Assembly (NCBI RefSeq): GCF_000455225.1
Contig: NZ_HF954535.1
Location: 19,481 to 59,162, forward strand
DNA length: 39,682 nucleotides
DNA from: Megasphaera massiliensis
GTDB taxonomy: Bacteria; Bacillota; Negativicutes; Veillonellales; Megasphaeraceae
Reading direction: 5' to 3'
The position numbers were made by a program, and so were the translations under genes. Positions 2,055 to 38,268 of the stretch are shown here, piece after piece. The notes under the pieces were generated by a model, which saw only the letters and a program-made list of their open reading frames with translations, ran no database searches and was not told where the DNA came from. Each line of letters begins with the position of its first letter. The stretch's first letter is position 1.

Positions 2055-2809
2055 TGTAATTCCTCCTTAGCTTGTAATGCTGCTATAATCTGCTCTTCTT
2101 CCGGGGACAATTCCCAGACAATGGGTTTTGCCTTCGCCGCCTGCATTGCCTTCGCCGCCTGCATTGCCCCCCCCCAGGGGACAAGCATACCACCGCCAAA
2201 TATTGTTTTTTTGTGCGGCCTTTGGGCGTCCAGCCTCCCGACCCATACGCCGTCAGACTCGTATGTCACTCCATACCTACTATAATTAGCCAATTTACTG
2301 GACGTCATCAGCGCCTCCGGATAGATGTACTTAGGGAGCTCTTTTTTATTGCTTTTCCCCGTTTTTTGGATGTCCTCTATCAACTCGTACAACTCCGGGC
2401 AACTTCTAACGATGGGCCCTTCCGAGGCCACAAAACTAGTCTGGACGATGGCCCCATTATCGTAAGTAATATTACAGCCCACCCCTATATGACACGTAGC
2501 AGCCTTAATAGATAATAACGTTAGATGCGGCGCAAAAAGAAAATAGTCGATTCCCCGCTCCTTATAGGTCCTGGCTATCCGGCTGATAATCGAGAATGGC
2601 GGATTGTCAATGACGACGCAATTCTCCGGATAATTGTAGTGCTCATAGTCTCCGCCCGGGTAAAAAGGACGCACAATAGCGCGTCCTTCCCAGTGGTATT
2701 CTTTTATGGCCCAGTTTTTTACTGCCTCATAGATTTCAGGCGGTGTATAGCAATCGTCGGTTGTTAATTTAGGCTTGAATTTGTCCACAAACGCCTCGTA
2801 ATCGTCCAT
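2051..2809 (-). CDS. DNA adenine-N6 methyltransferase-like protein with poly-G tract
   Basis: A 252-aa protein. VVIDNPPFS (residues about 65-73) is motif IV of N6-adenine methyltransferases, and TTDDCYTPPEIY near the N-terminus recalls EcoRI-methylase-like phage enzymes. The usual FxGxG SAM motif is not obvious; RPFYPGGDYE may take its place. It probably methylates phage DNA late in infection, protecting it from restriction. The C-terminal 40 residues contain a tandem AMQAAK repeat (an 18-bp duplication, 2130-2165) directly next to a nine-G run at 2167-2175. Slippage there would replace the C-terminal tail. It follows the amidase and is coupled to the 94-aa membrane protein. Confidence 0.75.
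   Translation of the reverse strand: MDDYEAFVDKFKPKLTTDDCYTPPEIYEAVKNWAIKEYHWEGRAIVRPFYPGGDYEHYNYPENCVVIDNPPFSIISRIARTYKERGIDYFLFAPHLTLLSIKAATCHIGVGCNITYDNGAIVQTSFVASEGPIVRSCPELYELIEDIQKTGKSNKKELPKYIYPEALMTSSKLANYSRYGVTYESDGVWVGRLDAQRPHKKTIFGGGMLVPWGGAMQAAKAMQAAKAKPIVWELSPEEEQIIAALQAKEELQ
2130..2175 (-). repeat. 18-bp tandem duplication plus nine-G tract inside the methyltransferase gene
   Basis: Two exact 18-bp copies (2130-2147, 2148-2165) encode AMQAAK twice. They are followed on the plus strand by one G and nine C (2167-2175), read as Trp-Gly-Gly-Ala on the minus strand. The gene is in frame with nine G. Both elements are slippage-prone, so this end of the protein is expected to vary between isolates. 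Confidence 0.75.
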
Positions 2810-3816: not shown

Positions 3817-4300
3817 CTATAATTTCATGATGTACGAGATAACGTAATAGGGCGGCATGGTAGATAACGTCTGAGACTCGGTATAAGCAACACGGACAGA
3901 GCCATTTGTAGAGCTACTATCTTTGTATGCTGTCATTACATGGGTATTATTAAATACCTTGCTCCCAAAAGCTGGTTCGTTGGTATTCCCTCCATAGCCA
4001 AAAAATACGCCATTATCGTCGAAACCCATAGCCGTTAAATGGGCATGCGTTACATTGTCACTTCCGCCGGTATCCCCGGTATTGCCGCCATTACCTGCCA
4101 GCAGAAATTTGCCTCGGAGGTCGGGCGTCCCTTGCGTCCCGTCGCAGAGGTGCCATTCCTTATCTGGCTTACCGGTGTTCCGATCGATGGGATAGCCCGC
4201 CTCAAAAGTACCAGAAAACGGCACTATGACGCCACTTATTACCCCCCCCCGATTTTGTAATAACGGCGGTTACACTACCGTCTTTGAATGTTGTTGGCAT
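3817..4300 (-). CDS. Tail fibre / tail collar protein, frameshifted at a nine-G tract
   Basis: The true start is ATG at 4300 (MPTTFKDGSVTAV), with AAGGAGG 7 nt upstream. Reading is interrupted at nine G (4242-4250): with nine G the product ends after 32 aa at a TGA at 4202-4204. With eight G the frame joins the downstream reading SGVIVPFSGTFEAGYP and gives an intact 160-aa collar protein ending in YYVISYIMKL. The C-terminal part contains the tail-collar pattern (CDGTQGTPDLRGKFLLAGN), a receptor-binding fibre-tip fold. Alone, the downstream part could start at a GTG (4224), but that has no good ribosome binding site. Either phase-variable, slippage-decoded, or a homopolymer sequencing error. 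Confidence 0.75.
4242..4250 (-). repeat. Nine-G homopolymer tract in fibre gene
   Basis: Nine consecutive C on the plus strand. It is the exact point at which the 4300-3817 collar gene changes frame. Removing one G restores the frame (484-1 nt = 161 codons including stop). Confidence 0.85.
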
Positions 4301-4313
4301 TGTTATTGCCTCC

Positions 4314-4670
4314 TTATTTCTGCTTTACTGCATACAATGAAAATCCAATAGACAACGACGCCCCGCTAGGGTTATGGACGTAGAAGATAATATTTTTTTC
4401 AGCATTATCCCATATTCTATCAGTGACATAAGCATCTTCAGACCCGCTGCAATGACATGCTGGATACGTTGTAATAACCTTATAACCAATGGGCACGTTA
4501 ATATGTAAATACATGCTAAAACCGCCTTTTATTGACGTTTTTGTCATGGCAGATAATTCAATAATATCCGACGACGCTAGTTTAGAATCAACTATCTTAG
4601 CCAACTCCTCTATTCGCCGATAAGCGTCTTGCAGAGACCGCACCTCGGCGGTCATTGTACCGTCTTGCAT
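4314..4670 (-). CDS. Small fibre- or baseplate-associated protein
   Basis: A 118-aa protein between the two fibre/collar genes, with AAGGAGG before the ATG. Residues 1-35 are helical (EVRSLQDAYRRIEELAKIVD) and could trimerise as a coiled coil. The rest is rich in beta-type and aromatic residues (MYLHINVPIGYKVITTY, NIIFYVHNPSGASLSIGFSLY), like a small receptor-binding or knob domain. No named family is recognised. Its position suggests a virion tail-tip component. Confidence 0.75.
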   Translation of the reverse strand: MQDGTMTAEVRSLQDAYRRIEELAKIVDSKLASSDIIELSAMTKTSIKGGFSMYLHINVPIGYKVITTYPACHCSGSEDAYVTDRIWDNAEKNIIFYVHNPSGASLSIGFSLYAVKQK

Positions 4671-4681
4671 AATATCCCTCC

Positions 4682-5146
4682 TTAGGCGTAGCAGATATAG
4701 TACTTAACTGTATAAGATTTGGGCTGTACCGTGTCGGATGCGCCGTATATAGGATTAGACTTTGAGGCGTCAAAACCAACACCACCATATAGATCGGAAG
4801 TAAGTGTTGTTAACGTATTTTCTACTAGTGGAACATGTATTTTTGTGCCTTTTCTAAACAGATGGCCATCAGCTTTTAATGCTCCTGCCGCGTTATCTGT
4901 AATCGTCGGGATTGTCGTCCATCTATTAGGCGCGTGTAATCCATCAATACCGGTAATGTTCGGCAGCCCCGCGCCCTTGGCCGTCCCCGCCGTTGTACTG
5001 CCCTCGAGGAAGCGGCCGTCGTTGAGATTTGGCAACCGGCCATCTGAAAAAATCTCAGCTAACTGTGGATAGCGTGCCCGGTCGAAGCTACTGCCGTCTG
5101 CCAGCATCAAATACTCATACGTTTTAGGCTCTCCGACTTTGGGCAC
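4682..5146 (-). CDS. Tail fibre C-terminal part (tail collar domain), out of frame with its N-terminal part
   Basis: This frame encodes a collar-type fibre tip: YLMLADGSSFDRARYPQLAE, then LPNLNDGRFLEGS, ending in KYYICYA. The possible GTG start (5146) is not convincing because the same frame stays open upstream to about 5225 and encodes a natural lead-in (NNFGSIKFVVKN, then HEVGDIVPK). It therefore looks like the C-terminal half of the fibre gene 5212-5943, displaced by one base at the seven-G tract 5215-5221. With eight G the two halves would form one protein of 420 aa. A ribosomal -1 slip at G GGG GGG would have the same effect. Confidence 0.75.
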   Translation of the reverse strand: MPKVGEPKTYEYLMLADGSSFDRARYPQLAEIFSDGRLPNLNDGRFLEGSTTAGTAKGAGLPNITGIDGLHAPNRWTTIPTITDNAAGALKADGHLFRKGTKIHVPLVENTLTTLTSDLYGGVGFDASKSNPIYGASDTVQPKSYTVKYYICYA

Positions 5147-5211: not shown

Positions 5212-5943
5212 TTACCCCCCCATGTTACTTTTTATCGTCTGCCAATCAGGTTCCGTGCTGCCAGTCGTACCGGCCTGCGTAACAATGATGATATACCCGG
5301 GCGGCAGGTTAGGCGATTGGAGGACGTCGCCGACTTGATACGCGGTGTTACGTTGGATATAATGGCCGTCGTTAACGTGCTGTACCTTAGTCAGATACGT
5401 GTCCTCTACCTCTTGGGCATCGGCCTTTTTGCCGAGACTGGCCGCGACGGTCGCCGCGAAGTTGGGGTCGTTGCCGAGGGCCTTGGCCAGCTCATCGAGC
5501 GTATTAAGGGTCTCTGGGGCCGAGTTAACCAAGGCCGCGAGAGACCGCGCCACAAACTCCGTGTTGGCAATAGCCTTGCTACTATTGCCCTGATTTGCGG
5601 TGGGGACCGAGGTAACGCCCGTCATCGTGACGTCCCCGGATAATGTTTTGTCCCCGGTAATAGTCTCGGTGCCCGTCCGGCGTACATAGCCAGCAGTGTT
5701 AACGGAGTCCCGCAGATTATTGATATCCGTCTGTAAGGCCTCGTCCGTCTGCTGCAAGGCGGCAGCCGAGTCGTCTAATGAGGCCGTAGCCTCGTGCAGA
5801 GCCTCAAAATTGTTAATGATGTGGTCGACAACGCCCTCATTGTCGGCAGTCGCAAACGGGGTATGCTTGTTGTATACCCCGGGGCGTATGATATTGTCGT
5901 TTTCGTCCCGGATTTCTCCGGGCTGGAATGCTTGTCTTTTCAC
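5212..5943 (-). CDS. Tail fibre N-terminal part
   Basis: A 243-aa product. Start ATG at 5943 with GGAGGT upstream. The N-terminus is an attachment-type segment (MKRQAFQPGEIRDENDN), then a coiled coil (about residues 48-85), then a repeat common in phage tail fibres (SSKAIANTEFVARSLAAL, then TLDELAKALGNDPNF). It ends at a TAA directly after seven G (5215-5221). Reading in the -1 frame continues into the collar domain encoded to 4682. Probably binds the host surface together with the downstream fibre proteins. Confidence 0.85.
   Translation of the reverse strand: MKRQAFQPGEIRDENDNIIRPGVYNKHTPFATADNEGVVDHIINNFEALHEATASLDDSAAALQQTDEALQTDINNLRDSVNTAGYVRRTGTETITGDKTLSGDVTMTGVTSVPTANQGNSSKAIANTEFVARSLAALVNSAPETLNTLDELAKALGNDPNFAATVAASLGKKADAQEVEDTYLTKVQHVNDGHYIQRNTAYQVGDVLQSPNLPPGYIIIVTQAGTTGSTEPDWQTIKSNMGG
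5215..5221 (-). repeat. Seven-G tract at the break in the fibre gene
   Basis: Seven consecutive C on the plus strand; on the minus strand ATG GGG GGG TAA, i.e. a G GGG GGG heptamer aligned with the zero frame and abutting the stop codon. A -1 slip or one additional G joins the two fibre halves. 5943 to 4682 is 1262 nt, and 1263 is a whole number of codons. Confidence 0.8.
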
Positions 5944-37548: not shown

Positions 37549-38268
37549 ATGGATATTATGATCGTAATAGGACTTGTCGAGATTGCTGTTATCATTTGGT
37601 ACATATTAGCCAAGAAAAATCCACAAAAGTATGCTCCATTTCTTCGGGCACCATACGGCAAGAAACGAGGTCTAATCTGCCTCGGCGTGTTATTCATATG
37701 TGGTTTGATCGGTATGGCTGCCGCGCCGCCGGCTCCCTCTTCTGCTCCTGCTCAGCAGCAGGAAGCCAGTCAGCCGGAAAAACAAGACGCTGCCCCGGAA
37801 AAGCCTAAGGACAGCGTAGAAATGGACGCTTACAAGAAATTTGTCGCGCTGCCGATGGGCAGCGACTACAACACTGTCCGGAATGCCCTGGGCGTCGATG
37901 GCGAGCTCAAACACGAGAACCAAGTCGGCGACACTAAGACACAAGCATATCAATTCCGGGTTGGATCCGCTGTCGCTATGATGACGTTCCAGCGCGGGCA
38001 ACTAACCAATAAGGCAATGGATAGCCTTACATTCTACCGGCAAAACGGCGAGTCGATTACCATGGACCAATTTAACCGTGTGCAGACGGGCATGACATAT
38101 GACCAGGTTAAGGACATATTCGGCCGACATGGCCTCCTGAAATCCGAGACCAATATAGGCGGTCATGACTCTCGCCTGATGTCCTGGATCAACTCCGACG
38201 GCTCCAATGTCATCATTACATTTAGCCAGGGCACCGTTAGCTCTAAGACGCAGACGCGCCTAAAATAA
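37549..38268 (+). CDS. Membrane-anchored protein with tandem BLIP/DUF3862-like repeats; candidate superinfection-exclusion protein
   Basis: A 239-aa protein. Two N-terminal membrane helices (about residues 3-20 and 41-57), then a Pro/Ala/Gln/Glu linker (APSSAPAQQQEASQPEKQDA), then two similar domains: residues about 98-165 (FVALPMGSDYNTVRNALGVD) and 176-239 (FNRVQTGMTYDQVKDIFGRH). The MxYxxVxxxxG pattern twice is typical of BLIP/SmpA-like tandem domains of Bacillota cell-surface proteins. It is transcribed with the repressor, so it is present in the lysogen at the membrane. This recalls surface lipoproteins such as Ltp of Streptococcus phage TP-J34, which block superinfecting DNA and are encoded between repressor and integrase. 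Function is inferred. Confidence 0.8.
   Translation: MDIMIVIGLVEIAVIIWYILAKKNPQKYAPFLRAPYGKKRGLICLGVLFICGLIGMAAAPPAPSSAPAQQQEASQPEKQDAAPEKPKDSVEMDAYKKFVALPMGSDYNTVRNALGVDGELKHENQVGDTKTQAYQFRVGSAVAMMTFQRGQLTNKAMDSLTFYRQNGESITMDQFNRVQTGMTYDQVKDIFGRHGLLKSETNIGGHDSRLMSWINSDGSNVIITFSQGTVSSKTQTRLK

Follow-up and report, generated by a model that had tools for sequence, protein, structure and literature searches.

Campylobacter phages are a known case of receptor-binding proteins switched by poly-G runs: passages of PMC10877375, PMC8713573 and PMC10579305 that draw on Sorensen et al. 2021 (Cell Rep 35:109214) describe phase-variable, poly-G-containing receptor-binding proteins in Fletchervirus phages. 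In both those phages and the stretch analysed here (the window, 39,682 nucleotides of a Megasphaera massiliensis contig), a G run lies inside a tail gene, the length of the run sets the reading frame, and there is more than one such gene per phage. In contrast to the Campylobacter phages, for which the same passages report variation within populations and an effect on host range, neither was seen here, and the Megasphaera phage belongs with a host of another phylum, is temperate by gene content and carries tail genes of another family. A technical counterpart is the homopolymer error of 454 pyrosequencing; in the part of PMC1564139 consulted, nearly all errors fall within same-base runs, and more than 95% of the error-associated runs, in an A/T-rich plastid genome, are A/T.

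On the minus strand of the window, positions 4242-4250 are nine G (nine C on the plus strand) in a collar-type tail gene that starts at ATG 4300, preceded by the ribosome site AAGGAGG (4309-4315), and reaches a stop after 32 codons (N-terminal piece, 4202-4300, minus strand); in all these points the sequence bears out the first-pass annotation. The C-terminal piece (3817-4224, minus strand; an ORF of 135 aa) lies in another frame that remains open back as far as the nine-G run, the point at which, by sequence reading, the gene is shifted out of frame. It had also been claimed that one G fewer would yield an intact gene; arithmetically this holds, the shortened run giving a 160-aa reading frame, and L023 and L024, phage contigs other than the window, hold uninterrupted collar-type homologues that read through the equivalent place. 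The N-terminal piece is identical to the N-terminus of an intact homologue at 8 of 17 residues, and the C-terminal piece shows 46% identity to both homologues. The two pieces belong to one gene because the intact homologues span an N-terminal-like start through the C-terminal part. A separate gene starting from GTG 4224 was ruled out, since the intact homologues start with the N-terminal piece. Neither homologue carries a G run at the place of the break (0 of 2). The proposed tail-collar identity of the gene stands in part: there are PHROG matches to tail fibre and tail collar families (E values of 5.4e-7 to 1.3e-4), but the C-terminal piece gave no match in a Pfam search, the homologues match Gp10_C below threshold only, and we treat the collar label for the gene at 3817-4300 as weak. 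Structure prediction for the C-terminal piece gave no usable model (mean pLDDT 35).

The neighbouring fibre gene is a second tail gene with a break at a G run, a new observation, and its one-base deviation has the opposite direction. The N-terminal part (5212-5943, minus strand; best PHROG E value 5.6e-23) ends in a stop right after a run of seven G (5215-5221, minus strand), where the frame is lost, and the C-terminal part (4682-5146, minus strand), in another frame, has a weak Collar-domain match under the Pfam cut-off. Four fibre homologues cover the run site: L024 and L168 (Acidaminococcus massiliensis) carry eight G and read through in frame, and L023 and L066 encode Gly-Gly-Val there without a long G run. 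The breaks in the fibre and collar-type genes sit at corresponding Gly-Gly-Val places. Both proteins may bind a receptor, to judge by their similarity to tail fibre and collar proteins.

The damage to two adjacent tail-tip genes at corresponding places, next to core phage genes that are whole, and the sharing of the fibre run by half of the homologues speak for real slipped-strand variation, for which the Campylobacter phages provide a precedent. On this account, the G runs would gain or lose a base in replication, the fibre and collar-type proteins would switch independently, and a phage population would produce virions with differing tail tips. Selection would not be required for the frame to be lost, since drift would suffice in a prophage tail gene that has such a run and is not expressed. 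We put the chance of such variation somewhat short of even. The phase-variation switch proposed in the first-pass annotation thus retains part of its support, namely, one gene broken at its run, the same defect in the neighbouring tail gene and G runs laid out as in phase variation in surface genes of the genus (see below). It is weakened by the finding that no run-length variation was seen in the tail genes, and a selected switch is further called into question by the lack of the run in both intact collar-type homologues. A protein scan for near-identical phages with other run lengths returned three loci, the window among them, and no such phage, the fibre homologues with eight G in frame or no run being more distant; a search with the flanks gave 28 stretches for the collar flank and 7 for the fibre flank, of which only the window and L024 (recovered as L430) lie within these genes.

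The gene content of the window is that of a temperate phage, with an integrase, a CI-like repressor, a large terminase, a portal, a tape measure, a primase, an endolysin and a haemolysin/holin-like gene. N runs adjoin both window ends (L248:18560-19480 and L249:1-469) and make its chromosomal junctions unreadable. Between the repressor and the integrase, positions 37549-38268 match a PHROG labelled beta-lactamase-inhibitor protein BLIP (E value 3e-32). PADLOC, applied to four proteins of the window, turned up no match relevant to the G-run breaks. The presence of two broken genes in one module would also be expected from fixed decay, that is, a defective prophage in which both tail genes are permanently frameshifted; we regard this as very improbable, given that the integrase, repressor, large terminase, portal, tape measure, primase and endolysin genes are all uninterrupted and that both breaks fall exactly at G runs.

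Runs of the same base favour slippage, and full-length proteins could in principle arise if the ribosome shifted frame, or transcription slipped, on the G runs; in the fibre gene, a -1 shift at the run of seven would lead into the second frame. Such recoding is the least probable of the explanations that we weighed: the two tail genes would need opposite shifts, and the intact homologues use no recoding at these places.

A third G run, again of nine (2167-2175, minus strand), is in frame near the C-terminus of the ORF at 2051-2809 and is absent in L434, the sole homologue found. The only family match of this ORF is phrog_21498, a short direct repeat follows the run, and the ORF contains a DNPPF motif like that of DNA adenine methylases. 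In the entire genome of 2,735,444 bases, there are three runs of at least eight G, two of them in the window, and 11 runs of at least seven G (overlapping matches merged), three of them in the window within 3.1 kb. The controls conflict as to how exceptional this is. In dinucleotide shuffles of the window, the mean number of overlapping 8-mers is 2.27 compared to the 4 observed, a value reached in 25 of 100 shuffles, so that by this measure the runs do not stand out, which counts against slippage. Runs of nine are rare under codon models, which counts in its favour: for 37.5 kb, codon chains predict 0.04-0.13 runs of at least nine, with 2 observed, and 0.15-0.51 runs of at least eight, again with 2 observed (P for at least two, 0.003-0.07). 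Synonymous shuffling of 29 intact genes, a set that includes one of the two long runs, gives P of 0.29 for one run of at least eight and 0.11 for at least nine, neither of them significant, and runs of at least five are fewer in these genes than in the shuffled sequences (14 against a mean of 24). Taken together, the G runs in the window are mildly unusual.

The lengths of the runs as assembled are a separate matter. The first-pass annotation had dismissed indel noise on the grounds that long A/T runs stay in frame. These runs (323-330 and 642-650) indeed lie within an uninterrupted ORF, but the argument built on them is not supported: murD is split at a G run, and the assembly is in line with a 454-only one. 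The murD gene, essential in bacteria, is present here in a single copy (L018:230-1597), with no second copy in the genome; ORFs in different frames match successive parts of TIGR01087, and the break falls at a run of seven G where both close relatives (G013 and G010) have six. The gene is split again about 0.85 kb downstream. This assembly thus has the wrong length for at least one G run. The genome consists of 28 contigs with N gaps. In the part of PMC3910696 consulted, Megasphaera massiliensis NP3 is described as 28 scaffolds sequenced by 454 GS FLX Titanium only, at 19-23x, and assembled with Newbler; from the number of scaffolds, the N gaps and kinship, we infer that the assembly is the NP3 genome. 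The same source gives 2,661,757 bases as against 2,735,444 here, a difference that we guess to be N, and this inferred strain identity is a weak point of any explanation through sequencing error.

The comparison with relatives covered 148,865 bases of the genome. A screen for split genes (331 pairs of a relative's ORF with the own sequence) gave 8 split pairs at six places, compared to 1 split in 330 pairs in the reverse control. Five candidates were dropped on inspection: at L271:16893, the relative G010 shares the own length; L310:4085, L313:10202 and L251 near 16480 lie, by eye, outside real coding frames; and L251:8226 adjoins the murD stop and was judged without realignment. The two shifts in murD are thus the only own-specific coding frameshifts kept in about 149 kb. 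Over the same sample, two of the four comparable G/C runs of at least six differ from every compared relative, one in murD and the other at a place without a long ORF, as do 13 of 186 A/T runs of at least six, for few of which coding was checked. There are 140 six-G sites in the genome, and 20 of the 30 such loci examined are spanned by an uninterrupted ORF under a strict rule. The eight runs of at least seven G outside the window include those of nadB and mraY, in frame, and those of murD and a YadA-like adhesin gene, out of frame; the other four look intergenic or leader (partly by eye). In L016, a seven-G run (1501-1507) lies in the leader of a gene, by eye shortly before its ribosome site and ATG, and a switch at the level of transcription is possible there.

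The explanation that we favour, at close to an even chance, is that the frame breaks in the tail genes are miscounted G runs in the assembly. The organism itself would have two unbroken tail-tip genes with about eight G in each run, and the assembly would have given one run a base too many and the other a base too few, owing to the poor performance of pyrosequencing on long same-base runs. This would account for the opposite one-base deviations around eight. The fibre homologues that possess the run carry exactly eight G, between the assembled seven and nine, and the homologues are intact at both break places; the murD error and the deviation of half of the comparable G/C runs come from the same assembly. 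As in known 454 error, the deviations are of one base, at same-base runs and in both directions, and murD shows them too; such error is demonstrated here for murD, not for the tail genes, to which the same kind of error would extend. Several observations tell against miscounting. With only murD shifted in about 149 kb, the general noise of the assembly is not severe; two wrong tail genes, while the terminase, portal, tape measure and primase are whole, look suspicious for random error; and the 454 errors in the cited part of PMC1564139 were mostly in A/T runs. Miscounting and real slippage are not mutually exclusive: eight-G runs would also be prone to replication slippage, and both could coexist. 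Given the G-run error in murD, which weighs against slippage as well, the OFF state of the tail genes is untrustworthy.

Part of the case for real slippage comes from the host genus, in which long start-proximal G runs, often out of frame, recur. Runs of at least eight G are present in 14 of 15 same-genus genomes (own included). We examined 39 distinct runs, consisting of the loci returned by the scan and 20 stretches (16 from G012), a chosen part and no census; 18 of these 39 lead straight into an open frame of at least 200 codons, nine of these frames have no start codon before the run (in L383, only 26 bases precede it), and three of the examined runs end a contig. A Pfam scan of ten such genes, nine from relatives and one own, identified a TonB plug in three (L326, L332 and L341), YadA domains in three (L329, L385 and the own L017), S-layer homology in L330, a DNA methylase in L396 and Bactofilin in L382, with no match for L335. 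In a TonB-receptor-like family of G012 with eight members among the examined loci (L326, L380, L383, L386, L387, L388, L391 and L392), the run directly follows the leader; in the seven members with both flanks, the runs are 11, 12, 13, 10, 13, 13 and 10 G long, and the frame stays open from the shared leader end AESPV across the run in the 12-G member alone. For the eighth member, the contig ends at the run. L329, L330 and L341 look in frame; L335 (G013), L332 (G004), L327 (G007), and L382 and L385 (both G012) are long ORFs with start-proximal runs of 8-13 G that apparently are out of frame.

In the methylase gene (L396:1-1921, G001; N6_N4_Mtase), nine G lie close to the start and the frame changes, as judged by the longest upstream frame; a switch of methylation is possible. 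In the own YadA-like adhesin (L017:130-1678; C6 near 407699), seven G and a shift of frame follow a signal-peptide-like start; N runs lie on its flanks and a ParA-like gene adjoins it (by eye). In G012, a twelve-G run lies in a transposase-like gene (L389, by eye) and reads through. Judging by their sequences, the G-run genes of the genus (TonB receptors, YadA adhesins and a DNA methylase) seem to have the layout of phase variation, and the own adhesin, which loses its frame at a G run past the N-terminus, would fit in with slippage. Among titles and abstract openings in the literature on Megasphaera and phase variation, and in a wider set, none dealt with poly-G switching there. As in bacterial poly-G contingency genes, represented here by the same-genus genomes, the phage runs lie in the coding part, and in-frame and out-of-frame members occur together; the contingency genes differ in being host genes with start-proximal runs, whereas the fibre run is deep inside the phage gene and the runs of the phage, at 7-9 G, are shorter.

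The most far-reaching interpretation is that a temperate Megasphaera phage carries two independent poly-G switches in adjacent tail-tip genes, while its host genus likewise switches TonB receptors, YadA adhesins and a DNA methylase through poly-G runs. One of the phage switches would then sit at a site that has kept a G run in phages of related hosts as well, and phage and host would share the same contingency game; we consider this full picture rather unlikely. Should the breaks prove to be artefacts, they would be a warning against inferring switches from 454 assemblies. If they are real, the range of phase-variable phage tails would grow beyond Campylobacter to include phages that infect common gut Negativicutes, and this would suggest poly-G switching in phage and host alike.
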